NCBI GenBank assembly: GCA_945869475.1
Contig: CAMBOV010000009.1
Coordinates: 1 to 64,000, forward strand
Length of the DNA stretch: 64,000 bases
Direction: 5' to 3'
Origin: Singulisphaera sp. GP187
Lineage (GTDB): Bacteria > Planctomycetota > Phycisphaerae > Phycisphaerales > SM1A02
Position numbers and translations under genes: made by a program. The notes below the pieces were generated by a model. It saw only the letters and a list, made by a program, of their open reading frames with translations. It was not told the origin of the DNA and did no database searches. Shown in pieces: positions 12,307-38,623 of the stretch; the first letter of the stretch is position 1, and each line of letters begins with the position of its first letter.

Positions 12307-12418
12307 GTGACGCGAGAGCAAAGTGACGTGAGAGCAAAGTGACGTGAGAGCAAGGTGACGCGAGAGCAAGGTGACGCGAGAGCAAGGTCACGTGAGAGCA
12401 CGGTCACGTGAGAGCTCA
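12307..12418. repeat. Seven tandem 16-bp repeats
   Basis: The unit is GTGACGCGAGAGCAAA, with variants at the C/T of position 7 and at the last two bases, repeated about seven times in exact 16-bp register. The two units at the right end change to GTCACGTGAGAGC, containing the palindrome CACGTG. The array fills the space between two convergent genes, and its last bases include the stop codon of the 912-residue protein (12416-12418). It probably expanded by replication slippage. Confidence 0.9.
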
Positions 12419-15154
12419 CCGCCCCTTCTCATCGACCCAACGATCGCCCTTCCAACGATCGCGCCCCGCCTCGAGACCAAAGATCTCGCGGGGCGATCCA
12501 ATTGGAGCATCAACCACGGGTTCGTCACCTCCCAGCGCGAGCGCGACGGCCCAGCGCTCGCTTCGAGGGTGAAGCAACGCCTGCTCGACCCGCAAGAGTG
12601 CGTCGACGGTCGCAGCAGAAAGTGGAGTGCCATCCCCTCGCAGATGAATGGCCGCGAGCTTGTCGAATTCTTCGCTCGTGCCCGGAACCCCGGCCATCAC
12701 GCTCTCGAAGAGCGCGCGCACCTGCGGCGACTTCAGCCGATCGGTCGCGCGCCGTCCAAATCCGCGCCGATATTGCACGATCGCTTCGATGACGGCGCCG
12801 CGCACCGCCGAACCGACTGCGTTCGCAGGTGGTGGCGCGTCGTCGGGCACGACGTGATCGCTGAACCGCGCTGCGACAGCACGCCACCGCGCGTCGGCGC
12901 CTTCCTCGTGGGTGACCGGATCGCCGGCAGCACTCTGCGGTTCGAGTGAGGCAAGTGCCAGCGCGGCGGATGCACCGAATTGACCTGAGTCAATTCCTCC
13001 AGCGAGCGCGAAGAGTTGGCGCGCGAGCACCAGCGATCCTGCCGAGTCACTTGCATCGGCGACCTCTTCGCCGAGCAGAAAGTACGCCTGCGCGTCAGTG
13101 GGCGAGAGTGCTTCGAGTCGCGCCGACCACTGCGAAACGGTCGCGGGTTCTGCGGGAGCGTTCCACTGCACGACGTGCGGATTCATCGTCGTCTGCACCT
13201 TCGCCCGACGCACTGACGGCACCGCGAGGCGAAGCGCATCGAGCGCAAGCGATCCCCGCGCGTTTGCGATCGCCTGACCGAGCGCCGACACCGCGCGCGA
13301 TCGCTCGAACGATGCCTGCTGCACGATCTCATCAAGAACGGATTCTTCTGCAGGACGCCGCACCCGCAGTGCGGCCGCCTCTTCATGCAGCAGCGCGGTT
13401 CCATCGAGCACGAATTCCTGCACAGCGCTCGCGTGCGCGCGTGCACCCCGGCGAGTCGGTGCTGCAACGGCCTTCACGATGACGCGAAGCACCTCACTCG
13501 GATCACTCGCAGTCGTTGTCACTCCGAACTGTGCTGCGCAGGTGCGCAGCGTCGCGGCGAGGTCGCCAGTGGCGCGGTCGATTTGCGATTGGCGCGATCC
13601 CCCGCAGTGCAAGATGCGATCGATGATTGCCGCGCGTGCAACCGCGGCCCCTTCAACGCCGTCGGGATCAACGCCACTGAAGGCGCGAATCATGCCAGAG
13701 AGCGCCGGATCATTTGCAATCTCAGTGAACCGCTCTTCAATGGCCTCGAGCACATCGCGCGAGTTGCCACCCCGATCGACGAGAATCCCCTGCGCGATTG
13801 TGCGCGTCGTGCGATTGGGTCCCTTGAGAGCTTCGTGCACCAACGTGCGCGCGTCGCGGGGTCCTGGCGATTCGGCGCGCGCGCGAAAGGTGCGCAGTCG
13901 CGATGCACGGCCCTCGGTGACACCCTGCGACTTCTGCAATCCCTTCTCGAGCTCTCCATCACTCTGCGGTGAAGGTGTGAACTCGATCGATGGATGCGAA
14001 GCGACGGTGACCGACGAATCGCTCGGAAGTGTGTCCAGAAGCAGCGACGCACTCTCATCACTGCCGCTGAGCAATTTCCGCGCCGCAAGATCGAGCGCCC
14101 ACAACCGCTCGAGCACGATGATCTCGCGCAGCGACGACGCAAGTGGATCCTTTTGCTGTGCCGCATCACTCTCGCGCTGCGCCACGGGCTGAATATCCAT
14201 CGCGGCCTGCGTCATCCGCTGCCAGCGATCGCGCAACTTTCGGTTTGCTTCACTCGCGTCGCTGATTTTCACAACGGGCGCCTTGGTGAGAGGTGTCGCA
14301 TTCTCCGCACGCTTCGCAGGGGGCGCGACGACTGCTGACCCGGAGGCAAACTCCTTTTTCGTGCGATCGACAAATGGCTCCCCATCGGACCGAGTGCCGT
14401 TTGACTCGACAACGCGGGGCGCCACTTGGGGTTCGATCACCTGCGCGGGTGCCTTCACCGCCCCTTGCAAGTAGAAAATCTCTGCGATCAAGAGCAGCAC
14501 GGAAAGCACGACGAAGAGCGCGAGCAACCACGGCACTCGGCGCACACCCTCTCCGGTGATATCAAACTCGAGATCGAAACTACCGGGTTCATGTGCGCGA
14601 AGCGAGTGAGCCGTTGACGTCGTCGCGAGATGTGCGTGCGTCCCCGCTGCCTCTGCCTGTGACTGCTCGGCCGCGCGCGCATAGAACATCCGAGCACGAC
14701 GGGGATCGCGCCGCATGAAGACCGCCGCCGCAATCGAGTTGAACGCGATCGACCCAGCGCGTCCGTCAGATGCGCCGCGGCTGTCGCTCGCCGCAGTCGC
14801 CGCGTGTGCTGCAGTCGCCGCGTGTGCCGCAGTCGCCGCGTGTGCTGCAGTCGCCGCGTGTGCCGCAGTCGCCGCGTGTGCCGCAGTCGCCGCGTGTGCC
14901 GCACGCAGGTCGAGCGAGTCAGCGATAAGTCGCTGCGCCGCGTCGCGAATCTCGAGACGCGCTGCTTCGCGAACGTCGTTCGAGAGCACGCTGTTTCGCG
15001 CGACAACCGCGAGTCGCGCCCGTGCCGCAGCGATGATCGCCTCGCGCGTTGAACCTCGTGCGACGCCAATGAAGGTGGCGTCATCCGCTTCAGTTGAGAG
15101 ACCAAGCAACGCGCGTGCACTCGTCGGCGAAGATGGATTGCTCGCGTCGCTCAC
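12416..15154 (-). CDS. Large single-span membrane protein of unknown family
   Basis: The 912-residue protein has no recognised domain. Residues about 1-85 are a helical, charged segment (RALLGLSTEADD...) followed by six 6-residue AAHAAT-type repeats. A single hydrophobic span lies near residues 206-228 (VPWLLALFVVLSVLLLIAEI). The remaining ~680 residues are alpha-rich with no cysteine cluster and probably lie outside the cytoplasm. It starts at GTG (15154), overlapping the preceding gene's stop as GTGA, so it is translationally coupled as the last gene of the VWA/ExbBD operon. An assembly or scaffold role is inferred from context only. Confidence 0.75.
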   Translation of the reverse strand: MSDASNPSSPTSARALLGLSTEADDATFIGVARGSTREAIIAAARARLAVVARNSVLSNDVREAARLEIRDAAQRLIADSLDLRAAHAATAAHAATAAHAATAAHAATAAHAATAAHAATAASDSRGASDGRAGSIAFNSIAAAVFMRRDPRRARMFYARAAEQSQAEAAGTHAHLATTSTAHSLRAHEPGSFDLEFDITGEGVRRVPWLLALFVVLSVLLLIAEIFYLQGAVKAPAQVIEPQVAPRVVESNGTRSDGEPFVDRTKKEFASGSAVVAPPAKRAENATPLTKAPVVKISDASEANRKLRDRWQRMTQAAMDIQPVAQRESDAAQQKDPLASSLREIIVLERLWALDLAARKLLSGSDESASLLLDTLPSDSSVTVASHPSIEFTPSPQSDGELEKGLQKSQGVTEGRASRLRTFRARAESPGPRDARTLVHEALKGPNRTTRTIAQGILVDRGGNSRDVLEAIEERFTEIANDPALSGMIRAFSGVDPDGVEGAAVARAAIIDRILHCGGSRQSQIDRATGDLAATLRTCAAQFGVTTTASDPSEVLRVIVKAVAAPTRRGARAHASAVQEFVLDGTALLHEEAAALRVRRPAEESVLDEIVQQASFERSRAVSALGQAIANARGSLALDALRLAVPSVRRAKVQTTMNPHVVQWNAPAEPATVSQWSARLEALSPTDAQAYFLLGEEVADASDSAGSLVLARQLFALAGGIDSGQFGASAALALASLEPQSAAGDPVTHEEGADARWRAVAARFSDHVVPDDAPPPANAVGSAVRGAVIEAIVQYRRGFGRRATDRLKSPQVRALFESVMAGVPGTSEEFDKLAAIHLRGDGTPLSAATVDALLRVEQALLHPRSERWAVALALGGDEPVVDAPIGSPREIFGLEAGRDRWKGDRWVDEKGR
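14799..14906. repeat. Six 18-bp in-frame repeats inside the 912-residue protein gene
   Basis: The unit GCCGCGTGTGCTGCAGTC (plus strand) recurs at 14799, 14817, 14835, 14853, 14871 and 14889, alternating CTG/CCG inside. On the minus strand it encodes (AAHAAT)6, an alanine-rich helical or spacer segment upstream of the membrane span. Copy number is likely to vary between strains. Confidence 0.9.
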
Positions 15155-17880
15155 GAGGCGGGCTTTCCCTGAGGGTTTTTTGCGTCTTTTCTCGGCACTT
15201 TGTCAGTCGGTGGCGTCACCACACCGAGCGTCGCCGCGAGCGAGCGCAATCGCTCTCCACCGAGACCGGGTCCCCAATTTGGAATCAGCACGACGTGTTG
15301 CGCAAGCACGCGCTTCGCCTGCTCAGGATCGCGTCGCGCAAGCACCTCGCAGAGGTCAGCCTTTCGTTCAAACCACGCATCTGATCGGGTCGGTAATCCA
15401 CCAACGAGTCGCGAGAGCGCATCGAACGCAGTATCGAAATCACTGCATGCCATCGCCGCGTCAGCCCTCAGTGCGAACGCCTGCGCATCGTCTGGACGAT
15501 GATCCAAAACTTCGCGCGAGATTGCGAGCGCCTGTGTCGCCCGCTCTTGCGCCTGCTGTTCGCGTGCAGCGGCCGTCGCCTCATCACCTCGTGCGCGCAA
15601 CGCTTGCGCAACACTCAAAAGATCTCGACCGAGGTCGAGGTTCGCACTGTCAGCTCGCTTTGAATCACCACTGCGCCGCGCCACGTCGAGCAGTGTGCGA
15701 CGCGACTCGACAAGTGCCAACATCGCCTGCACAAGACGCTCTGGCGGCACCGACGAGCGCGCGAGCATCCGCTCCATCCCTCGAATAAAGAGCGCTTCGG
15801 CGACGGGTCGCCACGTCGCGTCGCTGGTTTCGCGCACAGTTCCAATGGCTTCAACTGCCAGAAGCGGATCGTCAATGGCAATAGCGAGAGCCAACCGGCG
15901 TACTGCGAACTCAGAGCGATACTCGAGCGGTTCGCTGCCAACGGGATAGCGCGAAGCGACAACCTTCAAGAGCGCAGCAGCGCTCGCAGCGTCCGCGACC
16001 GACGGATCGAGCGCCGCTTCGAGTTGCTGACGCAGCACGATGTCGATCGAGTCGCGCGGCCACTGCGCAGGTGACCGTCCCACGACCGTCGAAAGCCGCT
16101 GCGCCTCGCTCGCGCGATCTGATCCGTGTGCCGCGCGAAATCGTCGGTACAACAAAAGCGCAGCGGCCTCGCGCGCACTCTCGGGTGCTCCTTGCGCGAT
16201 CGCCCGACGCAGTAGTCGATCGACGAGCACATCATCGTTGTGCGCATGTGGATCGCTCGCGAGTGACGAGGCGGCATCCGATGCATGATCGCCATCGGGA
16301 TAGAGACGCAGATACTCCCGCGCGAGTTCGAGCGCCCGTCCGCGCGCGCCGCCCTGCTCGTCAGCGCACTCGCCTTGCATCGCGCTCTGCGTCGCCATCC
16401 AGAAGAGTCGCTCGGCGCGCGTGCCACTCCACTGCGCTGACGCACGAACGAACGATTCGGACGCATCACAGTGTTGCCCCGCTCCCATCCGAGCCCATGC
16501 GAGCAACTCTTCGAGCGCCGAGGTGGTCTTCGCATTCGCTGGAGCGCGCGCGATCGCTTGAACGAGTTCGTTGGCGGCTCGCTCCAGCAGCGCCTTCTTT
16601 CGCGATACATCGGATGTCGCTCGTCCGACCTCATACGCGTCGACGCCGCGCGCAAGCGAGGCCGAAAACGTCTCTCCTTGCGTGAGCGACGGAATTCGCG
16701 CGGCAATCGAGCGCACAGCGGCGAGATCGCCTGCGGCTGCGGCGAAGGCGATTGCACTCTGCGCGAGCATGAGCGACTGTGCGCCACCCTTCGATTGTGA
16801 GCACGCGCGACCGGCGGCACCCACGACTTGCGAGCTCGTCAACGCCGCGGATTCTGTTTCAATCAATCTTGCCGCCGCGTCATACTCATTCCCGTCGACG
16901 AGGGCCTTCAGTTTCCACGGCGCGATATTGGCGAGTCCACTCCACACCGCAGGTCCCTCAAGTAACTCAAACCAAGGCTGCGCGTTGACATTTCCGGCGA
17001 CGAGCGTCTTGGTAAGTGCCATCCCAAGAATGGACTGCGCGTAGTACTCCTCACCTCGCAGGTCAACCGACGTCTCGCTCGCCTCGGGAAATGGCTTGCC
17101 TGTTTCGAGCAGCGCTGCCCACTCCTGCGTGAGTTTCTCGCCTTCGCGCTGCCACGCCGTCGAACGAGCGGCCGAGTCACTTGCCGTCGACCGACTTAGC
17201 CAAAGCGTCCAATAGTGACACCATGCGCGCAAGAATTGCGCATGCAGTTTCTGCTGCGTAGCCGCGTCGACCTCGAGCATGGACGCGATCCGATCCTTTT
17301 CCTCGGCGCCTCCCGCCCGACGTTGGCTCACTTCGATGCGCGCTGCAAGTGCGACCTCGAGTTGTGCGAGAGGATCGATCGTGCGAGCGAGTGCTGCGAT
17401 GACACGCGCTTCAATTGCAGGATCGCCCTCACCGCGTCCGAGGCGGTCGATGTCCTTGAGTGCGATGCGATACTCCGCGCGAGCGAGGGCGAGTCGAAGC
17501 ACCGCGTCGTACGCCGAGCGATCTGCAGAGAGAAACTTCTGGATGCGCCCGCGCAAATCGAGCATGCGATCTTCATCGGTCGCTTGATCGAGCAGACGCA
17601 CGTAGGCATCCGCAAGACGCGAGGCGATCATCGGAGCGGTCGTTGGAGCTTTCGCGAGGTGTTCGGCCAGCACGATGGCCAGCAAGTCGGCGAGTCCCTG
17701 CTGCGAAAGCCACTCAGTCAATGCTTGCAACTCGTCAGACTCGGTTGTCTCGTCGGCTCTAGTCGCGTGCGCGGTCGGCAACGCGTGCACGGTCGGCAAC
17801 GCGTGCGCCTGCGCGAACGATGTGAAGACGAGTGCGAGTGCTAACGCAGACGTCGAGCTTTCAGCGCGACGCAGAGACAT
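15151..17880 (-). CDS. Secreted 909-residue alpha-solenoid (TPR-like) protein
   Basis: A signal peptide (MSLRRAESSTSALALALVF, then TSFAQA with a likely cleavage after AQA) precedes a repetitive HALPTV segment and a long, almost entirely helical protein. Many A-x-x-A/L helical-hairpin units resemble tetratricopeptide repeats, as in the final 200 residues (ALRARGDEATAAAREQQ, QAFALRADAAMACSDFDTAF). The ATG at 17880 has GGAGG 6 nt upstream and lies 20 nt inside the preceding exbD. Position between ExbD and the 912-residue protein suggests a periplasmic partner of the ExbB/ExbD motor. The exact repeat class needs a profile search. Confidence 0.75.
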   Translation of the reverse strand: MSLRRAESSTSALALALVFTSFAQAHALPTVHALPTAHATRADETTESDELQALTEWLSQQGLADLLAIVLAEHLAKAPTTAPMIASRLADAYVRLLDQATDEDRMLDLRGRIQKFLSADRSAYDAVLRLALARAEYRIALKDIDRLGRGEGDPAIEARVIAALARTIDPLAQLEVALAARIEVSQRRAGGAEEKDRIASMLEVDAATQQKLHAQFLRAWCHYWTLWLSRSTASDSAARSTAWQREGEKLTQEWAALLETGKPFPEASETSVDLRGEEYYAQSILGMALTKTLVAGNVNAQPWFELLEGPAVWSGLANIAPWKLKALVDGNEYDAAARLIETESAALTSSQVVGAAGRACSQSKGGAQSLMLAQSAIAFAAAAGDLAAVRSIAARIPSLTQGETFSASLARGVDAYEVGRATSDVSRKKALLERAANELVQAIARAPANAKTTSALEELLAWARMGAGQHCDASESFVRASAQWSGTRAERLFWMATQSAMQGECADEQGGARGRALELAREYLRLYPDGDHASDAASSLASDPHAHNDDVLVDRLLRRAIAQGAPESAREAAALLLYRRFRAAHGSDRASEAQRLSTVVGRSPAQWPRDSIDIVLRQQLEAALDPSVADAASAAALLKVVASRYPVGSEPLEYRSEFAVRRLALAIAIDDPLLAVEAIGTVRETSDATWRPVAEALFIRGMERMLARSSVPPERLVQAMLALVESRRTLLDVARRSGDSKRADSANLDLGRDLLSVAQALRARGDEATAAAREQQAQERATQALAISREVLDHRPDDAQAFALRADAAMACSDFDTAFDALSRLVGGLPTRSDAWFERKADLCEVLARRDPEQAKRVLAQHVVLIPNWGPGLGGERLRSLAATLGVVTPPTDKVPRKDAKNPQGKPAS

Positions 17881-18280
17881 AGGAAACCTCCGTGAAACCA
17901 GCATCCTGAGCAGCCTGCATGGCCGCAGCGACCGCAGCGACATCCGATCGATCGTGCACGCGCACGACGACGCCGAGTTCGTGAGGCAGTTGTCGCAAGA
18001 CGGCAGCAAGATCGTCGCGCGTGCGCGTCTCGCGGGCGCCGATACGAAAGAAAGCGCCGCCTGCATCGGCGTCGACATCCACGATTTGTGGACTCATCGC
18101 CTCGGCGCCGATCCCCACCCGCGCCTCGGCGGCGTGCGCAACCAATTGCGATTCTTGTTCGCCGACCGCGGTTGTGAAGATGAAGTACGAGAGCAAGAGA
18201 AAGGTCGCATCGATCATGCTGGTCATCCCCAGATTGATCGTGCCATGCGCGGCGCGGCGTGAACGCACTCCGATTTTCAT
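17861..18280 (-). CDS. exbD: ExbD/TolR-family protein (second copy)
   Basis: The 139-residue protein has one N-terminal membrane span beginning MTSMIDATFLLLSYFIF, with the proton-carrying Asp at residue 24, and a C-terminal periplasmic domain of the ExbD/TolR fold. It starts at 18280 in an ATGA overlap with the first exbD. Compared with copy 1, the P after T is replaced by S (MTSMID instead of MTPMID). Two ExbDs next to one ExbB suggests a heteromeric ExbD dimer in the ExbB pentamer, an inference. Confidence 0.88.
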   Translation of the reverse strand: MKIGVRSRRAAHGTINLGMTSMIDATFLLLSYFIFTTAVGEQESQLVAHAAEARVGIGAEAMSPQIVDVDADAGGAFFRIGARETRTRDDLAAVLRQLPHELGVVVRVHDRSDVAAVAAAMQAAQDAGFTEVSYVSASR

Positions 18281-18696
18281 TTCGTTCCCTGACTGGCGCG
18301 AATGGTGGCGAGACGAACCGTTCGAAATCCTCCAGTGCGCAGGGCATCCATCACGGCGTTGAGATGAGCCGCTGATGCTCCGCGGTCGGCACGAATCACA
18401 GGGATCGCAGTGGGATCTTGCGCAAGCGCGTTCTTCGCGAGCAGTGCAATCTCACTCGTGAGAACCGTCTTCTCAAGGATCACAATCGAACCATCATCGA
18501 TGACGTTCACGACGAGGCCGCTCGACTCGAGCAGTTCATCGGCGTTCCCATCCTCTCGCGGCAAGGTGACCGGCGCCGACGACATCTGCGAGAGCTGCGC
18601 GGTTGTGAGAAAGAAAATGAGAAGCAAGAACACGACATCGATCATCGGCGTCATGTCGAGTTCGATTGCGCCTGACGTCGGACGGCGAATCCTCAT
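18277..18696 (-). CDS. exbD: ExbD/TolR-family protein (first copy)
   Basis: This is a 139-residue biopolymer-transport protein. The transmembrane motif DMTPMIDVVFLLLIFFL contains the essential proton-relay Asp at residue 20, followed by a periplasmic domain ending in a TolR-like fold (IPVIRADRGASAAHLNAVMDALRTGG). The ATG at 18696 overlaps the exbB stop as ATGA. It works with the MotA/TolQ/ExbB channel encoded just upstream to convert proton flow into mechanical work on a partner protein. Confidence 0.92.
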   Translation of the reverse strand: MRIRRPTSGAIELDMTPMIDVVFLLLIFFLTTAQLSQMSSAPVTLPREDGNADELLESSGLVVNVIDDGSIVILEKTVLTSEIALLAKNALAQDPTAIPVIRADRGASAAHLNAVMDALRTGGFRTVRLATIRASQGTK

Positions 18697-19361
18697 CGCT
18701 GCTGCGTGCCCCCACCCAGCGCCGAGGTTCCAACGCGCTCGAGCGCCATCGCGAGCGATTCGAGCGCACGTCCCGAATCGGCGGCTGCTCGGTCGATGCG
18801 ACGTCGCAACCACGCATGGGCCATCACGCACGGAATCGCCACGACGAGTCCTTGAAAGGTCGTGATGAGTGCGATACTGATATTGAACGCAAGCGTCTCG
18901 TAGTAGGCATTGCTCTTGGTCGCGGCGCTCGCCACCGTCTCGAATGCGCCGATCATTCCTTGCACCGTGCCGAGAAGTCCAAGCAGCGGAGCAACACTTG
19001 CAATGACGGCAATGGGATCGATCGCACGAAAGAGACGCGTCGTCTCCTCTTCACCTGCATCTTCCATTGCGGCGCGCGCTTCAAGCCCACCAAGTGGACC
19101 GCGAAGCGAACGATCGAGTCCAGCTGCTGCGATGCGACCGAGAAAGGTGTCGCCCTCTTCGCTGCGGCAGTCGGTGAGAGCCTCAGCGAACTCTCCTGCG
19201 TCTGCCCGCTCACGCAAGTCCTTGACCTGCTCATCGGGAATGAGCCGCGCGCGCTGCGTTCGTAAGGCCGCGGCGACCGCATAGGCAAATGCGACGATGC
19301 TGAGCGCGAGAATGATGTATCCGATGATTCCGCCACCTTCGATGTACTTGAAAAACGTCAC
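18693..19361 (-). CDS. exbB: MotA/TolQ/ExbB proton-channel family protein
   Basis: The 222-residue protein has a first membrane span at about residues 12-34 and two conserved C-terminal spans. The second span region (VAPLLGLLGTVQGMIGAF) is the family signature, and the third (NISIALITTFQGLVVAIP) carries the conserved Thr of the proton path. It starts with GTG at 19361, overlapping the upstream gene as GTGA. It is the fixed channel of the energy-transducing complex with the two ExbD proteins downstream. No TonB or TolA gene is seen; the VWA protein two genes upstream takes that position. Confidence 0.92.
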   Translation of the reverse strand: MTFFKYIEGGGIIGYIILALSIVAFAYAVAAALRTQRARLIPDEQVKDLRERADAGEFAEALTDCRSEEGDTFLGRIAAAGLDRSLRGPLGGLEARAAMEDAGEEETTRLFRAIDPIAVIASVAPLLGLLGTVQGMIGAFETVASAATKSNAYYETLAFNISIALITTFQGLVVAIPCVMAHAWLRRRIDRAAADSGRALESLAMALERVGTSALGGGTQQR

Positions 19362-20599
19362 GGGCTTGCTCCAGGATTTGACTGAACGTCGATGCGATCT
19401 GTGTCGTCAGTGGCCGTGTGCAGCCGTCGCAGCACTGCCGCCGATTCGTCGTCATGAATGCGCACGAGTGCGATCGATGATTGCAGCAACGCTGCAGCGG
19501 CCAACCGCGGCGCTTCTGCGCTGTACGCCGCTGGAATCAGCAACATCTTGCCCACCCCGATGCGTACTTTGTCGGGATCCTCCTCCATTGCAAGGCTGCG
19601 TCCCTCGGCGTAGATGGCCCACATGCGCACCGCGCCATTCTCGACGCGCGCGATCGACTGCAATGTGTCGCGTCCGCGCTTTCGAGCGGGGGCATCGGCA
19701 GCAACCGCGTCGGCCCATCCGGTCAGAAGTTTCGCTGCAAGTTTCGCTGCCGAACGTGCTTCGAGAGTCGCAGGCTCGAGCGTCGTGTGGGCAGTTCGCT
19801 CTGGCTCGCTGGTGCTCGCGGGCGCTTGTGTGCTCGCGGGCGCTGTCGTCGTCACGCGCGCGGGAGCTTTCTCTGGGGTTCCTGCATCTGCCGCAGCGAT
19901 CCGTGATGCGAGCGTCAAGAGCTCTGCGAGAGCGAGATCACTCTGCACACGCGCGCGATCGGCCGCAACGATCAGCGACTCGCGCGCCTGTTGCGCTGAA
20001 GCTCCATCGAGCCAGACTGGCGCAACTCCGAGCAAGAGTCCAGTGCGCGCGTCGACTGTGTGTGGCTGGGCGATCCACTCTGCTGGCAGTTGGTACCGCG
20101 ATCGAAACACGGATGCGGTGAGATTCGACGCGAGCGACTCTGCCCACGCCTCTTCGTCGACCAGTGCCGTCTGTGCGATCCCCTCTTCGATGATCATGCG
20201 CTCGAGAACCGCCGCGGCATCGACTGCGCGCGAGGCTTGGGTAAAGAGCGTACGCGCGGCCGGAAGATCACCCCGCGCAAGGCGCACTCGTGCCCTCCAG
20301 AGTTCTGCGCCTCGTGCAAGTCGTTGCTCGCGCTGTGCACTCGAGGAGTCACTCGTCAGCGTGCGAATCTGATCCCACCGTAGAAAATGGGTGAGCGCGC
20401 CATCCGCTGACTTCACTTCAATCTCAACACCATCTGCCCCCTCTCGCAGCAACTCGCCAGTCCTCGTTGCTCCGCCATCGCGCAGCACGACGAGTGCATC
20501 TGCACTCAGCGCAGTGCCACTCGCTCCGAGCACGACGACGCAGAGTGTTGCACTGACGCAGACTGTTCGCAGCGAGATCAGGCAGCGGCGCGTGATCAC
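19358..20599 (-). CDS. Exported protein of unknown function in the ExbBD operon
   Basis: The 413-residue protein starts with a signal peptide (VCVSATLCVVVLGASGTALSA). Residues about 33-85 form a small beta-rich module (LVVLRDGGATRTGELLREG, FLRWDQI), a pattern often seen in planctomycete secreted proteins. The rest is helical, with a Thr/Pro/Ala-rich linker near residues 248-275. It has ATGA and GTGA overlaps with both neighbours, so it is stoichiometrically tied to the VWA and ExbB proteins. No enzymatic motif is visible; a periplasmic accessory subunit is inferred. Confidence 0.75.
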   Translation of the reverse strand: MITRRCLISLRTVCVSATLCVVVLGASGTALSADALVVLRDGGATRTGELLREGADGVEIEVKSADGALTHFLRWDQIRTLTSDSSSAQREQRLARGAELWRARVRLARGDLPAARTLFTQASRAVDAAAVLERMIIEEGIAQTALVDEEAWAESLASNLTASVFRSRYQLPAEWIAQPHTVDARTGLLLGVAPVWLDGASAQQARESLIVAADRARVQSDLALAELLTLASRIAAADAGTPEKAPARVTTTAPASTQAPASTSEPERTAHTTLEPATLEARSAAKLAAKLLTGWADAVAADAPARKRGRDTLQSIARVENGAVRMWAIYAEGRSLAMEEDPDKVRIGVGKMLLIPAAYSAEAPRLAAAALLQSSIALVRIHDDESAAVLRRLHTATDDTDRIDVQSNPGASP

Positions 20600-21561
20600 G
20601 GCGTCGCTCCGCGGGTGATCGAAAATGTGCCGCCCGTCTCAGCTGCGATGCGACGAAGTGGCGCGCTCGCAGCCGCCTGCCCATACGCGATGCAGTGAAT
20701 CACTGTGTTTGGACCCCGCCGATTCAGCCGCAAGATTTCATCGGCGGCATCGGGAGGAATTTCTCCGTCGCTCATAAAGAAAACTGCGTCGGGTCGATCG
20801 CGACGTGAGAAAAGAAAGGCGAAGGCGGGCACTGGATTAGTGCCTCCTCCTGGAGCGATGTTCGCGAGCCACGTGCGCAACTTCGCGAGATCAGATGGAT
20901 GGCACTTCACGAATCCGCTTTCTGGATCGACCGTCGTAAATCCATCGTCGAAGAGTGCAATGCAGACCGAGGCAAAATCTGGAAGCGCCGCGACGCTGTT
21001 GCGCAGTTCTTCGAGCGCGACATGGATGCGTCCCCCACTTCCCATCGATCCAGACTTGTCGACCACGTATCCGATTCGTTTGCCCCGCCCCGCAACACCG
21101 AAGAATGTTGTTCCCGACCCGGCGCCGCTGCCGAAGCCTCCCTCGCCGCCGCCGCCGCCAGCAACTGAGAAGACTCCGGCTTCTCCAGCGGCAACTGCAC
21201 TCGCGTCTGAACCATCGTTGCCACGCGCCTCAGGAAGTCCGATGTTCTGCGAGTCGTCCGCACTTCCGCTGCGCTCGCCACTTGCGATTGCCGGAGTGGT
21301 CGCGTCGCCCGAAGATGAGTCCTCGTCCGTGGGTTCGAATTCCGTTGGATCGTTCAGCGCGATCGTGACCGATGAGCCGCCGATTCCATCGCCTTCGCCC
21401 AGACCGATGCCCGAGTCGATCCGCGAGAGGATCACAAGCAAGAGTGCATGCAACGGCAGTGAAATGGCGAGTCCGATCCAGATCCATGAGATCGCGTTGC
21501 CTCGGCGCCTTGTCGTCCGCGAAGCATGAGGTCGATCACGTGACTCTGCCAATGCCATCAT
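20596..21561 (-). CDS. VWA-domain protein with a TonB/TolA-like membrane anchor
   Basis: The 321-residue protein has a basic cytoplasmic N-terminus and one membrane span at about residues 25-46. That span contains Ser34-x3-His38 (SLPLH), the spacing of the Ser and His that couple TonB and TolA to ExbBD or TolQR. A Gly/Ser/Asp-rich linker (about 50-160) leads to a von Willebrand factor A domain with the MIDAS motif DKSGSM (Asp168, Ser170, Ser172) and FMSDGE. It opens a seven-gene operon with exbB-exbD-exbD, so it may be the energised partner of that motor. The ATG at 21561 has no Shine-Dalgarno; TACAAT lies 9 nt upstream. Confidence 0.85.
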   Translation of the reverse strand: MMALAESRDRPHASRTTRRRGNAISWIWIGLAISLPLHALLLVILSRIDSGIGLGEGDGIGGSSVTIALNDPTEFEPTDEDSSSGDATTPAIASGERSGSADDSQNIGLPEARGNDGSDASAVAAGEAGVFSVAGGGGGEGGFGSGAGSGTTFFGVAGRGKRIGYVVDKSGSMGSGGRIHVALEELRNSVAALPDFASVCIALFDDGFTTVDPESGFVKCHPSDLAKLRTWLANIAPGGGTNPVPAFAFLFSRRDRPDAVFFMSDGEIPPDAADEILRLNRRGPNTVIHCIAYGQAAASAPLRRIAAETGGTFSITRGATP

Positions 21562-21570
21562 CTGATGAAG

Positions 21571-21578
21571 ATTGTAGT
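21571..21578. promoter_or_regulatory. Overlapping divergent -10 elements of the VWA operon and pyrH
   Basis: On the minus strand TACAAT (21576-21571) lies 9 nt before the VWA ATG. On the plus strand TGTAGT (21573-21578) lies 10 nt before the pyrH ATG at 21589. The two starts are 28 bp apart, so the -10 sites overlap and both transcripts would be leaderless. Good -35 elements are not obvious. Confidence 0.4.
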
Positions 21579-21588
21579 CTTCCTCTCA

Positions 21589-22326
21589 ATGCCAACGTCA
21601 GCCAACACAACGCGCGGTCGATATCGGCGGGTGCTCTTGAAGTTGAGCGGCGAGAGCTTTGCCTCCGAAGGGACTCTTGGCATTCAACCTGAAGAACTCG
21701 CGAGCATCTCTACTGAAATTGCGGCGGCGGTCGGTGAAGGCCTCGAGATGGCAGTCGTGGTTGGAGGGGGCAACATCGTGCGCGGCGCGCGCCTTGCCGC
21801 GGCGGGCAAATTCGACCAATCGACGGCGGATTACATGGGGATGCTCGGCACCGTCATCAACGGACTCGCCCTGAAACAAGGACTCCACTCGGTTGGAATC
21901 GAGAGTCGCGTGATGAGCGCGATCCACGTTCCAAGCGTTGCCGAGTCGTTCATCCGCGCGCGCGCGATGCGCCACTTCGAGAAGGGCCGCGTCATCATTC
22001 TCGTGGCCGGAACCGGAAACCCCTACTTCACAACTGACACCTGCGCCGCCCTTCGCGCGATCGAACTCGGCGCCGAGGTGCTCTTGAAGGCGACCAAAGT
22101 GGATGGCATCTACACCGCCGATCCCAAGCGCGATCCAACTGCAACCCGCTACGAAACCCTGCGTTTCGCCCAGGCGCTTGATCAGAAACTCGGCGTCATG
22201 GACCTCACCGCGATGACGATGTGTATGGAACACGCCCTTCCGGTCGTTGTCTTTGACTACAAGGTGCCCGGCAATATTCGACGAGTCGTCGATGGCCAAC
22301 GGATCGGAACGCTCGTCACGGCATAG
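21589..22326 (+). CDS. pyrH: UMP kinase
   Basis: PyrH phosphorylates UMP to UDP. The 245-residue product contains the amino-acid-kinase motifs LLKLSGESF, VVVGGGNIVRG, GTVINGLALKQ and the ATP site VLLKATKVDGIYTADP. An in-frame ATG at 21565 would add eight residues outside the conserved family start; 21589 is preferred because the -10-like TGTAGT lies 10 nt before it. It is followed by frr after 30 nt, the conserved pyrH-frr order. tsf and rpsB, usual upstream partners, are replaced by the divergent VWA operon. Confidence 0.95.
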   Translation: MPTSANTTRGRYRRVLLKLSGESFASEGTLGIQPEELASISTEIAAAVGEGLEMAVVVGGGNIVRGARLAAAGKFDQSTADYMGMLGTVINGLALKQGLHSVGIESRVMSAIHVPSVAESFIRARAMRHFEKGRVIILVAGTGNPYFTTDTCAALRAIELGAEVLLKATKVDGIYTADPKRDPTATRYETLRFAQALDQKLGVMDLTAMTMCMEHALPVVVFDYKVPGNIRRVVDGQRIGTLVTA

Positions 22327-22356
22327 CACCGCACGACGCCCCTAGAAGGAGTTCAC

Positions 22357-22923
22357 ATGGATATTGACACGATCTTGCTCGAGGCAGAGGAACGGATGGC
22401 GAAGAGCCTCGACTATCTCTCACGCGAGTTTCGAGGAGTCCGAACAGGCCGCGCGAGCACGGCGCTGCTCGAGTACATCAAGGTCGAGTACTACGGCAGC
22501 CACGTCGACTTGCGCGAGATTGCCGGCATTAGCGTGGCCGAGCCGACGCAACTGCTCGTGAAGCCTTTCGACCCAGGGGCGAAGACCGAAATCATGAAAG
22601 CGATCGAACGAAGTGGACTCGGTCTCAATCCGCAATCGGAAGGGGCGCAGATTCGCGTCGCCATTCCAGCGCCCTCGTCCGACCGACGCAAACAACTCGT
22701 CGTTCAAGTGCGAAAGATGGCTGAAGAGTCACGCGTCACGATCCGCAATGAACGCCGCGATGCCAACAAGGCGCTCGACGTGCTCGAGGCTGATCCAAAG
22801 TCAAAGATCTCTGAAGATCAAGTCGAAAAGGCCAAGGAGTACATCGACGAGATCACCAAGACGACCTCGACCAAGATCGATGACATGACGACAAAGAAGG
22901 TCGCCGACATTGAAGAGATTTGA
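22357..22923 (+). CDS. frr: Ribosome recycling factor
   Basis: RRF splits post-termination ribosomes with EF-G. The 188-residue protein has the family blocks REFRGVRTGRAS, VEYYGSHVDLREIAGISV, IPAPSSDRRKQLVVQVRKMAEESRV (split here around SSDRRK) and the C-terminal helix ending in KVADIEEI. The ATG follows an AAGGAG site at 6-7 nt. It is co-transcribed with pyrH, and the downstream secreted protein gene begins 4 nt after its stop. Confidence 0.96.
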   Translation: MDIDTILLEAEERMAKSLDYLSREFRGVRTGRASTALLEYIKVEYYGSHVDLREIAGISVAEPTQLLVKPFDPGAKTEIMKAIERSGLGLNPQSEGAQIRVAIPAPSSDRRKQLVVQVRKMAEESRVTIRNERRDANKALDVLEADPKSKISEDQVEKAKEYIDEITKTTSTKIDDMTTKKVADIEEI

Positions 22924-22927
22924 TCTG

Positions 22928-25300
22928 ATGTCCGCGCGGCTGACGCGACTCGCGGGTGTCGGAGTGGCGTGCGCCCTGACCACGCTCGCACTGGCGCAAG
23001 CTCCGCAAGTTCGGCAAGCTCCGCAAGTTCGGCAAGCTCCGCAAGCGACGCCGCCAACTCCCATCAGCGACGAGCTCCCTCAAGAGGTTGTTGCGAGTGA
23101 CAACACGCGCATCACGAAATCGTGCCGGCTCATCGTGGCGCCCCGCGCGCTCATCGACACCGACAACAACGGAGTCATTCAGATCGAGGGCGACAACATC
23201 ACCGTCGACCTTTCAGGGCAGACTTTGATGGGGGATGAACCAACGACCGCACAGGATCAACTTCGCGGCATCGGCATCGTGTTGCGCGGAAACGGCATCA
23301 CCGTTCGCAACGGCACGATCACTGGATTTCGAGTGGGAATCTCAGGAATCAACTGCAATCAAGCGACGATCGAGCGGGTCGAATTGATCCGCAACTATGC
23401 GCAGCGATTGCTCTCGACGCCCGAGCAGGAGGATGAACGAGATTGGCTCGCACCGCATCAGAACGATCGTGATGAGTGGCTCACCCTCTACGGAGCAGCC
23501 GTGGCCATTCGCGAGGCGCGCGGCGTCACACTGCGCGAGATCGGCGTGCGTCAGGGACAGAACGGCATCGTGCTTTCGCGCGTGACCGACTCACAGGTCT
23601 ACAACTGCGATGCATCTTTTCTTTCGGGATGGGGTCTCGCGCTCTGGCGCAGCAGTCGCAACACGATCTGTCGCAACTCATTCGATTTCTGCGTGCGTGG
23701 ATACTCGCACGAAATCTACAACCGGGGCCAAGACTCTGCGGGCATTCTCTGCTTCGAACAATCCTGCGACAACATCATCGCGCTGAACTCGGCAACCCAC
23801 TGCGGCGATGGATTCTTCGGATTCGCCGGCCGTGAGGCGCTCGGCGAAGTGGGTCACCTCGGCGAAGAGCAGGGACCCCAGTGGCACCGACGCACTGGAT
23901 CGAACGACAATCTCATCGCGATGAACGATTTTTCGGACGCCGCCGCGCACGGAATCGAGACGACCTTTTCGTTTGGCACTCAGATCATTCGCAATCGACT
24001 CGACCGCGATGCGATCTGCGGCGTGTGGGGCGGATACTCACAGAACCTGCAGATTCGAGGCAATATCTTTCGCGCCAACGGTGCTCCGTCGCAGCGCGAG
24101 GGTGGAGCGATCAACATCGAACATGGCAGCGGCGCGGTGATCGCAGATAACCAGTTCGCTGCCAATTCAGTCGGGGTCAGCCTCTGGTGGGATGACGACC
24201 TTGCGCTGGAGAAACTCCCGTGGACGACCTCAAACGGATCAGCTTCGAAGAACAACGCAATTATCCGCAACGTGTTCGACCGCGACACGGTTGCCGTGCG
24301 ACTTCGCAAGAGCGATGAGACGACGATCGCCTTCAACACGATGGGTGATGTGCCCAATGCGCTCGATGCAGACGCGACGAGCGCGAAAACAGTGCGCAGT
24401 GAGTCGACCCTTGCGCCTGCCGATTTCACTGCGATGGCGACGCTCGAACAAGCGCTCCCGGGCGGAGGCAGCGCGGTGCGAATCGAGAATGCACTTCCGA
24501 TCTCGCTGCGCGAGCAACTCACTGGACGCGGCGCGATCTTCATGGGCGAGTTCGGCCCCTACGACTACATCGCTCCGATGGCGATCGCGGTGCCAGGGAC
24601 GACCGAGCTTCACCGGTGGAAACTGCTTGGATCGCAGCCGATTCAGTTCGTTCAGGCGACGAAGGGCACGAGCGATGTGCGCACACGCATCGAACCTGAC
24701 GAGAACGTCGCCGTCGTCGAGAACGAAACTTCAGGCGCGCTGAGCAACTACGAACTCTCGATCTTCTGGGGACGCGCTCCAAATCAAGTTCAGACGGTGC
24801 GCGGAACAATTCTCAACGCAGCCTGGCGGATCACCGTCTTCGCACTGCCACCTTCGACTGACGCGAAGTCCCCGCCCTCGCGCGAGGTGTTCGACCTCGC
24901 GGCGACAACGGGCCACGTCGTCTACGTCGAGTCGTTGACCTTTCCATTCGGCGCGGGTGGTCCAGATGCAGTGAAACTGATTCCAACGACGCCCGACGCA
25001 CCGAAAGACAACTTTGGACTACGCGCGACCTCGACCTTTGCAGCCGCGGCAGGTGAGTGGATCCTTCAAACGAAATCGGACGATGGCGTGCGCGTCTGGA
25101 TCGACGGCGTGTTGCTCATCGATCGCTGGACGCACCACGCAACCACCATCGATCGTGCCGCCCTCTCGATTCCAATTGCGAAGGAAGTCACTGTGAAAGT
25201 CGAGTATTTCGAACTCGTTGGCGATGCGCGGCTCGAGTTGAAGATCGAAGCTGATCCATCGAAGCCCACGCCAGCCGCACCCGCCGCGAGTACTCCGTGA
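22928..25300 (+). CDS. Secreted right-handed beta-helix protein with C-terminal PA14-like domain
   Basis: The 790-residue protein starts with a signal peptide (LAGVGVACALTTLALAQA) and a proline/glutamine repeat. Residues about 50-480 show parallel beta-helix repeats of the NosD/carbohydrate-binding type (GNGITVRNGTITGFRVG, NLQIRGNIFRANG, GAVIADNQFAANSVG). Near residues 690-770 a segment (GEWILQTKSDDGVRVWIDG, DRWTHH, KVEYFE) matches the PA14 pattern. Both modules usually bind or process carbohydrate. ATG at 22928 is preferred to a TTG at 22910 that overlaps frr. The product is likely extracellular; the substrate is unknown. Confidence 0.82.
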   Translation: MSARLTRLAGVGVACALTTLALAQAPQVRQAPQVRQAPQATPPTPISDELPQEVVASDNTRITKSCRLIVAPRALIDTDNNGVIQIEGDNITVDLSGQTLMGDEPTTAQDQLRGIGIVLRGNGITVRNGTITGFRVGISGINCNQATIERVELIRNYAQRLLSTPEQEDERDWLAPHQNDRDEWLTLYGAAVAIREARGVTLREIGVRQGQNGIVLSRVTDSQVYNCDASFLSGWGLALWRSSRNTICRNSFDFCVRGYSHEIYNRGQDSAGILCFEQSCDNIIALNSATHCGDGFFGFAGREALGEVGHLGEEQGPQWHRRTGSNDNLIAMNDFSDAAAHGIETTFSFGTQIIRNRLDRDAICGVWGGYSQNLQIRGNIFRANGAPSQREGGAINIEHGSGAVIADNQFAANSVGVSLWWDDDLALEKLPWTTSNGSASKNNAIIRNVFDRDTVAVRLRKSDETTIAFNTMGDVPNALDADATSAKTVRSESTLAPADFTAMATLEQALPGGGSAVRIENALPISLREQLTGRGAIFMGEFGPYDYIAPMAIAVPGTTELHRWKLLGSQPIQFVQATKGTSDVRTRIEPDENVAVVENETSGALSNYELSIFWGRAPNQVQTVRGTILNAAWRITVFALPPSTDAKSPPSREVFDLAATTGHVVYVESLTFPFGAGGPDAVKLIPTTPDAPKDNFGLRATSTFAAAAGEWILQTKSDDGVRVWIDGVLLIDRWTHHATTIDRAALSIPIAKEVTVKVEYFELVGDARLELKIEADPSKPTPAAPAASTP
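22996..23046. repeat. 18-bp tandem repeat encoding APQVRQ units
   Basis: The unit GCAAGCTCCGCAAGTTCG is present 2.8 times just after the signal peptide of the beta-helix protein. It encodes APQVRQ-APQVRQ-APQ and probably only spaces the signal peptide from the folded domain. Confidence 0.85.
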
Positions 25301-38446: not shown

Positions 38447-38623
38447 TAGTTTCGCTTTCGAGGGGCACACTTCTGGGGAAGTTTTCGGGGGCACACTTCT
38501 GGGGAACTTTTCGGGGGCACACTTCTGGGGAACTTTTCGGGGGCACACTTCTGGGGAAGTTTTCGGGGACACACTTCTGGGGAAGTTTTCGGGGACACAC
38601 TTCTGGGGAACTTTTCGGGGGCA
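38447..38623. repeat. 26-bp tandem repeat array upstream of pheS
   Basis: The core CACACTTCTGGGG recurs exactly every 26 bp at 38466, 38492, 38518, 38544, 38570 and 38596, with degraded partial units at both ends. Within units GAAGTTTTC and GAACTTTTC alternate; GAAGT can pair with the ACTTC of the following unit, so RNA hairpins are possible. Since 26 is not a multiple of three, three units make a 78-nt superperiod that stays open in several frames on both strands; the plus-strand translations are rich in Phe, Gly and Thr. No protein is supported. Confidence 0.92.

Follow-up and report, generated by a model that had tools for sequence, protein, structure and literature searches.

What does an ExbBD-type motor drive when the membrane-anchored protein encoded beside it ends in a VWA domain? 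The question is raised by a seven-gene operon in a 64-kb piece of contig C9 (CAMBOV010000009.1, positions 1 to 64,000; hereafter the window) of the Singulisphaera sp. GP187 genome (GCA_945869475.1; order Phycisphaerales), which comprises 2.55 Mb in 32 contigs. The VWA protein of the operon shares 76% identity with that of a Phycisphaerales metagenome-assembled genome from Baikal. We consider it likely that the operon encodes a proton-powered trans-envelope machine, the VWA arm of which acts on a periplasmic or outer-membrane partner; the complex, its subunit numbers, the transmission of force and the ligand of the metal ion-dependent adhesion site (MIDAS) are what we infer within this reading.

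The operon, its anchored VWA protein and its motor

All seven open reading frames (ORFs) lie on the minus strand between 12416 and 21561, in the order VWA, EXP, ExbB, ExbD1, ExbD2, TPR-like protein and SPAN, with the labels ExbD1 and ExbD2 assigned by the better-scoring model.

20596..21561, minus strand: VWA transducer, 321 residues; basic N-terminus, single span with S34-x3-H38, linker of about 100 residues, C-terminal VWA domain with a complete MIDAS
19358..20599, minus strand: EXP, 413 residues; signal peptide, small beta domain followed by paired helices (low-confidence model), no Pfam family
18693..19361, minus strand: ExbB/TolQ-type motor subunit, 222 residues; T148 and T181 equivalents kept, E176 equivalent Ile
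18277..18696, minus strand: ExbD1, 139 residues; D25 equivalent kept
17861..18280, minus strand: ExbD2, 139 residues, diverged; D25 equivalent kept
15151..17880, minus strand: exported TPR-like helical protein, 909 residues; hydrophobic N-terminus, weak TPR match
12416..15154, minus strand: SPAN, 912 residues; predicted cytoplasmic N-terminus of about 200 residues, one internal span and predicted large periplasmic region

The coordinates confirm the tight packing described in the first-pass annotation, with five overlaps of 4 nucleotides (VWA/EXP, 20596-20599; EXP/ExbB, 19358-19361; ExbB/ExbD1, 18693-18696; ExbD1/ExbD2, 18277-18280; TPR/SPAN, 15151-15154) and one of 20 nucleotides (ExbD2/TPR, 17861-17880). 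The start of ExbD1 at 18696 and that of the 909-residue TPR-like protein at 17880 are both internal to longer ORFs. Pfam matches were obtained for the VWA protein (VWA_3, E=6.6e-9, 36.4 bits against a cut-off of 27), for ExbB (MotA_ExbB, E=3.4e-26) and for the two ExbDs (ExbD, E=6.6e-24 and 2.7e-11). No match to a sigma-70-like promoter was found in 20500-22400.

The VWA protein had been described as carrying Ser34-x3-His38 in its only span, and a 19-residue Kyte-Doolittle scan agreed, placing the motif within the sole hydrophobic span. In the residue-conservation alignments, which took in 28 of the fetched loci, all from the order, S34 and H38 were invariant (28/28), on a par with the MIDAS residues D168, S170, S172, T241 and D265; the complete set of invariant columns comprised M1, S34, H38, F153, F154, G155, G160, D168, S170, S172, M173, G239, T241, D258, D265 and G311. 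In the larger set of 66 VWA ORFs, which includes paralogues and one contig counted twice (L031 and L033), Ser was present in 62 (61 in alignment columns, plus L085, where it was hidden by start trimming) and His in 63. The exceptions were L054, at a contig end with no motor in view, where His is replaced by Asn; L083, where both copies have Ala for Ser and a motor is present; and L081 and L091, with no ExbBD in their fetched stretches. As a baseline, non-VWA ORFs encoded at the same loci as the VWA proteins were examined: S-x3-H was present in 6 of their 618 hydrophobic segments, and in 3 of 244 when only single-span ORFs were counted. Chance occurrence of the motif was rejected on the comparison of 6/618 with 28/28.

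The force-bearing arms of TonB and TolA end in homologous C-terminal domains. When the N-terminus of the VWA protein was compared with those of the two proteins, S-x3-H was found at a like place in E. coli TonB (S-V-C-I-H) and TolA (S-A-V-L-H). The VWA protein has no TonB_C match and the genomes have no TolB_N match, and membership of the Ton or Tol system was rejected for this reason.

Of the 20 VWA rows with at least 10 residues ahead of the span, 17 have positive charges more often on that side than on the other; over all 28 rows, several of them starting only at the span, the count is 20. This bias predicts that the VWA domain is periplasmic, and a cytoplasmic location appears unlikely. 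Within the linker, residues 65-78 show a conserved hydrophobic-Glu-hydrophobic pattern.

In the motor proteins, the equivalents of the ExbB pore threonines T148 and T181 were kept in 56 of 56 sequences, and that of the key aspartate D25 in 62/62 ExbD1 and 49/49 ExbD2 sequences, sets that include second-type motors adjoining other VWA genes. The E176 equivalent was kept in one of the 56 ExbBs, the others having Ile (15), Leu (14), Thr (9), Lys (6), Val (5), Gln (4) or Met (2); the Ton-type ExbB of the same genome keeps Glu at this position. In a tree of 81 ExbB sequences, with E. coli TolQ absent from its final version, all 53 ExbBs of cassette loci fell into one clade with support of 0.987. 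Most other VWA-linked motors branch beside this clade, which is separate from the Ton ExbB, the E. coli ExbB and the ExbB encoded on contig C1. A MotA_ExbB gene of C1 (L103:8545-10958) overlaps by 4 nucleotides a gene for a 547-residue protein with FHA, GAF and SpoIIE domains, and no ExbD match was found on that contig.

The predicted coupling of the motor to the VWA protein is well supported by conservation. In the proposed mechanism, ExbB and the ExbD1/ExbD2 pair would form a 5:2-type motor in the inner membrane, and the VWA protein would dock on the side of this motor through its S-x3-H anchor helix. The linker, with its motor-box-like stretch, would extend into the periplasm, proton flow would pull or re-set the C-terminal VWA domain, and a partner in the periplasm or outer membrane would be held via a metal ion at the domain's complete MIDAS. 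Among the operon's products, EXP, the TPR-like protein and SPAN, the last through its periplasmic part, are likely candidates for partners or adaptors; SPAN may also touch the motor with its cytoplasmic domain.

Motif and motor across VWA loci

The VWA search gave matches in 92 genomes, out of which regions from 58 relatives were hand-picked so as to span genera and families; seven more were added. The main set has 63 sources, 52 of them cassette loci, and 20 secondary VWA regions represent part of the further matches of that search. In the main set, L083 was the only motor-bearing locus whose VWA protein is without S-x3-H. All five of the secondary loci with ExbB and ExbD have the motif, and it is absent from 14 of the other 15; a span is present in eight of these 14, and the remaining six show at most a signal-like one. 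Two further VWA loci were found in the genome under study: that on C16 (L092) has ExbB-ExbD-ExbD together with the motif, and that on C2 (L091) has neither. The former, at L092:7686-13766, is a second VWA-ExbB-ExbD-ExbD locus with an 838-residue exported helical protein, and its VWA protein has S-x3-H. From outside the order, 20 VWA regions were chosen mostly for matches reaching into the span, a choice that favours motif-bearing proteins, and all 10 of those with ExbB and ExbD nearby have S-x3-H. The motif thus nearly always goes with the motor inside the order, and outside it the rule is loose.

Several observations weigh against the machine proposed above. At L083 both VWA copies have Ala in place of Ser though motor genes adjoin, and L122, inside the order, keeps S-x3-H without a motor. 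Outside the order, the motif is present at 8 of the 10 motor-less VWA loci, with no span found in the other two; a pattern scan covering nine of these 10 loci detected no ExbB- or ExbD-like ORF. Because motor-less loci, both these eight and L122, carry it, S-x3-H alone is no proof of coupling to this motor. At L052, L066 and L072 the VWA protein has S-x3-H, yet the operon contains neither ExbB nor either of the ExbDs. Of the remainder of the SHLS motif, Leu is found in 36 of the 66 VWA ORFs and the last Ser in five, and the window protein has Leu45 but Asp49; we did not treat this as excluding the SHLS class, because the available passages of PMC12204202 say that 'many' members have the motif and stress the His. 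AlphaFold2 models made from three-row alignments were poor, with a mean predicted local distance difference test score (pLDDT) of 49 for the VWA protein and 53 for EXP, and the former shows linker residues 51-151 as unstructured, with no strand and pLDDT under 50. In the ExbB tree, which has several weak deep nodes, the VWA-linked ExbB of L154, from outside the order, stands on the Ton side.

At L122 (7644-11182), the S-x3-H VWA gene is followed by an ORF of 778 residues that resembles the exported helical protein, with no motor gene; this genome (G074) also has the main operon, at L060.

The motor-less loci bear on another explanation. In MoxR/Bat-type systems the VWA protein serves as a scaffold or assembly factor. 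The present one could likewise be merely tethered beside the motor, which would drive another operon protein such as SPAN, with S-x3-H kept for helix packing, an explanation that we judge unlikely. Consistent with it, the VWA, EXP, TPR and SPAN genes occur together without ExbB or ExbD at L066 and L072, and the VWA, TPR and SPAN genes at L052, with an EXP match between VWA and TPR; outside the order, VWA genes keep S-x3-H where no motor gene adjoins; and SPAN, too, combines a single span with a large periplasmic region. However, the Ser and His of the VWA protein are as invariant as the MIDAS residues, the eight span-bearing VWA paralogue loci of the order that are without ExbD are also without the motif, and by eye the SPAN spans have no motif in common.

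The first-pass annotation had proposed that the motor drives a MIDAS-type VWA domain in the periplasm. This proposal is supported in part, by the conserved anchor, the invariant MIDAS, the charge bias predicting a periplasmic domain and the intact motor residues; its further idea, that the domain grips or remodels a ligand or scaffold instead of an outer-membrane receptor, is more speculative. None of the three results named in the annotation as refuting came up: no TonB or Pal gene was seen to pair with this motor, Ser and His are conserved, and the prediction does not place the VWA domain in the cytoplasm. A simple rule tying motif to motor is contradicted by the motor-less loci with the motif and the Ala at L083.

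The three motor-less loci L052, L066 and L072 also have a SPAN without the N-terminal cytoplasmic domain (3/3), compared with two of the 44 other SPAN loci; L066 and L072 belong to the same family and may represent one event. Because the motor and this domain are absent together, there is a hint that the cytoplasmic domain of SPAN works with the motor.

Distribution, chromosomal place and cellular role

The search for the gene order recovered the full seven-gene arrangement in 44 of the 52 cassette loci. The other eight comprise four cut by contig ends (L032, L049, L054, L061), the three without motor genes, and L059, without recognisable EXP and SPAN. At L052 EXP is unlabelled, yet the EXP match between VWA and TPR lies in the same open frame as TPR. 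In 101 genomes, namely the one studied here and 100 relatives, EXP was found in 76: 57/61 in family f1, 12/12 in f2, 1/1 in f3, 6/6 in f4, 0/9 in f5 and 0/12 in f6, where five genomes without an EXP match were assigned to families from the VWA search. Because EXP is absent from all 21 genomes of f5 and f6, the cassette is a feature of four of the six sampled families and not of the order in its entirety. In the nine loci of f5 and f6 covered (L077-L085), VWA is accompanied by ExbB and ExbDs in eight and by EXP in none. In a sample of the phylum, 15 of 294 genomes had an EXP match, five of these weak and partial. Two genomes outside the order, in f73, have VWA-EXP-ExbB-ExbD-ExbD-TPR, with a SPAN-type gene further on, and none of the flanking genes of the operon (pyrH and others) was seen at these loci.

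In the window, a divergent pyrH (AA_kinase family match) adjoins the operon upstream and is followed by an frr-like gene; downstream are a convergent gene for a Cys/Met pyridoxal phosphate enzyme and ssb-, rpsF-, pth- and rplY-like genes. We take the names pyrH, frr, ssb, rpsF, pth, rplY and nrdR from recognition of the sequences. Divergent pyrH adjoins the operon upstream in all 52 cassette loci of the main set and in 7/7 of L096-L102; at L134 it is adjacent but reversed. The frr gene was found in 40 of the 52 cassette loci, some stretches ending before its position. Recent horizontal transfer within the four families was rejected because the pyrH flank is constant.

Next to frr, 22910-25300 encodes a 796-residue protein with beta-helix, NosD and PA14 domains, a homologue of which is in the same flank in 18 of the 63 sources, window included. 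Directly past the operon end, a 16-bp tandem repeat of 6.8 copies lies in the gap at 12307-12415, and a 26-bp repeat (6.4 copies, 95% matches) is found at 38456-38623 of the window.

EXP and SPAN had no Pfam family in the scan of the window proteins. A Pfam search of the EXP members gave weak, scattered matches, the best being bPH_6 (E 1.7e-4) in 4/28, and no match to sequences of the PDB was found; SPAN and its separate C-terminal gene matched nothing in Pfam better than E 0.012. The TPR-like protein of the window has a single sub-threshold Pfam TPR match (E=0.022; none at E 0.01), and any one TPR model matches at most four of the 28 family members; the family profile matches consensus TPR structures with E 2.2e-26. 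A hydrophobic N-terminus is present in 47/49 EXP and 49/50 TPR-like proteins, and one strong internal span in all 46 SPANs tested. The window SPAN looks like a fusion protein: of the 44 full loci, 16 have a single gene that SPAN matches, and in the other 28 the match is split between two genes. Inside the SPAN gene, an 18-bp tandem repeat of 6.3 copies (14790-14903) codes for repeated Ala-Ala-Thr-Ala-Ala-His in the N-terminal part.

The first-pass annotation had noted no TonB, TolA, TolB or Pal gene nearby, and none was found among the flanking genes identified in the window, which is annotated only in part. Elsewhere in the genome, contig C14 has a canonical Ton locus with DUF3450, ExbB, ExbD, TonB_C (77 bits) and TPR genes, so that TonB adjoins an ExbB and ExbD of its own, and the one Plug-domain match of the genome lies about 5 kb past this locus. 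On C5, an ExbD adjoins a 401-residue protein with a weak TonB_C score (16.6 bits, below cut-off). Two OmpA lipoproteins, at C1:309806 and C1:397202, are distant from the operon.

These data bear on a Ton-like role, in which the operon would serve energised uptake or the handling of surface polymers and the VWA arm would open an outer-membrane channel. The anchor and linker are TonB-like, and since the genome has only one Plug-domain match, other outer-membrane gates may exist. We nevertheless regard this role as quite unlikely: the genome has a dedicated Ton locus, though TonB_C was matched in only 41 of the 101 genomes, and those neighbours of the operon that were named in the window and followed in relatives resemble housekeeping genes, with no search for porins or receptors made beside the operon in relatives.

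A role in surface motility or adhesion is also conceivable. The AglRQS gliding motor has two diverged ExbDs per motor, which the two ExbDs here resemble. Such a role is suggested in the passages of PMC12204202, which draw a parallel with a vWA protein from gliding bacteria. For this operon it would be very improbable, since the constant pyrH neighbourhood would fit a housekeeping function better than an accessory one.

For the proton-powered machine with a VWA arm, our best guess of the cellular job is envelope maintenance, given that four families have the operon at a fixed place in most of their genomes. TolB_N was matched in none of the 101 genomes, which thus have no recognisable TolB domain, although the Pfam model may miss a diverged TolB; in the phylum sample it was matched in 9 of 294, eight over the cut-off and the best at 26 bits. 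From this distribution one may speculate, doubtful as the idea is, that in the four TolB-less families the vWA motor with EXP, TPR and SPAN does the work of Tol-Pal: an inherited proton-powered device would tie or pull the outer membrane as the cell grows and divides, gripping through a metal-dependent VWA domain where TolA grips TolB-Pal, and SPAN would relay a cytoplasmic signal. The consulted part of PMC5147048 states that Planctomycetes are without FtsZ and that Phycisphaerales divide by binary fission, so an alternative envelope machine at division is worth testing. With a motor of the Ton/Tol kind linked to a VWA/MIDAS domain, and one chromosomal place in four families without recognisable TolB, the operon is a defined gene set for study, and allows tests of how planctomycetes energise and hold the outer membrane and of what else 5:2 motors can drive.

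Comparison with known systems

The operon shares with TonB-ExbBD the anchor-helix Ser and His, the linker, the ExbB pore threonines and the ExbD aspartate. It differs in having no TonB_C, two ExbDs and an E176 equivalent kept in only 1/56, and the genome has its own Ton locus on C14. With TolQRA-TolB-Pal it has in common the motor type, a TPR-like companion and a transducer composed of anchor, linker and C-terminal domain; here, however, the C-terminal domain is VWA, no OmpA gene is present at the operon and the 101 genomes have no TolB_N.

The closest description is that of Williams-Jones et al. (2025, Mol Biol Evol; PMC12204202), the available passages of which report, with AlphaFold 3 models and in Planctomycetes among others, vWA force transducers that have an SHLS anchor and whose genes adjoin those for TolQ, two TolRs and a TPR protein. 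As there, an inner-membrane S-x3-H helix, a linker and a C-terminal VWA domain are encoded adjoining one TolQ-like, two TolR-like and a TPR gene. Here, by contrast, VWA is the first gene, whereas there it is downstream, EXP and SPAN are in the operon and pyrH adjoins it. The same passages describe a vWA class with its own pore helix, which likewise has a VWA domain driven by a TolQ-like protein but is described without ExbD and without SHLS; because two ExbDs are present here and S-x3-H is in the VWA helix, the class in which VWA replaces ExbD was rejected for this operon. In the passages of PMC12204202, supplements aside, we found no mention of EXP, SPAN, the four-family conservation, the pyrH position or the absence of TolB_N. 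The core coupling idea was already published in 2025 and the operon is a variant of that kind, to which, as far as these passages go, the extended gene set (EXP, SPAN), the fixed genome place and the missing TolB marker are the additions.

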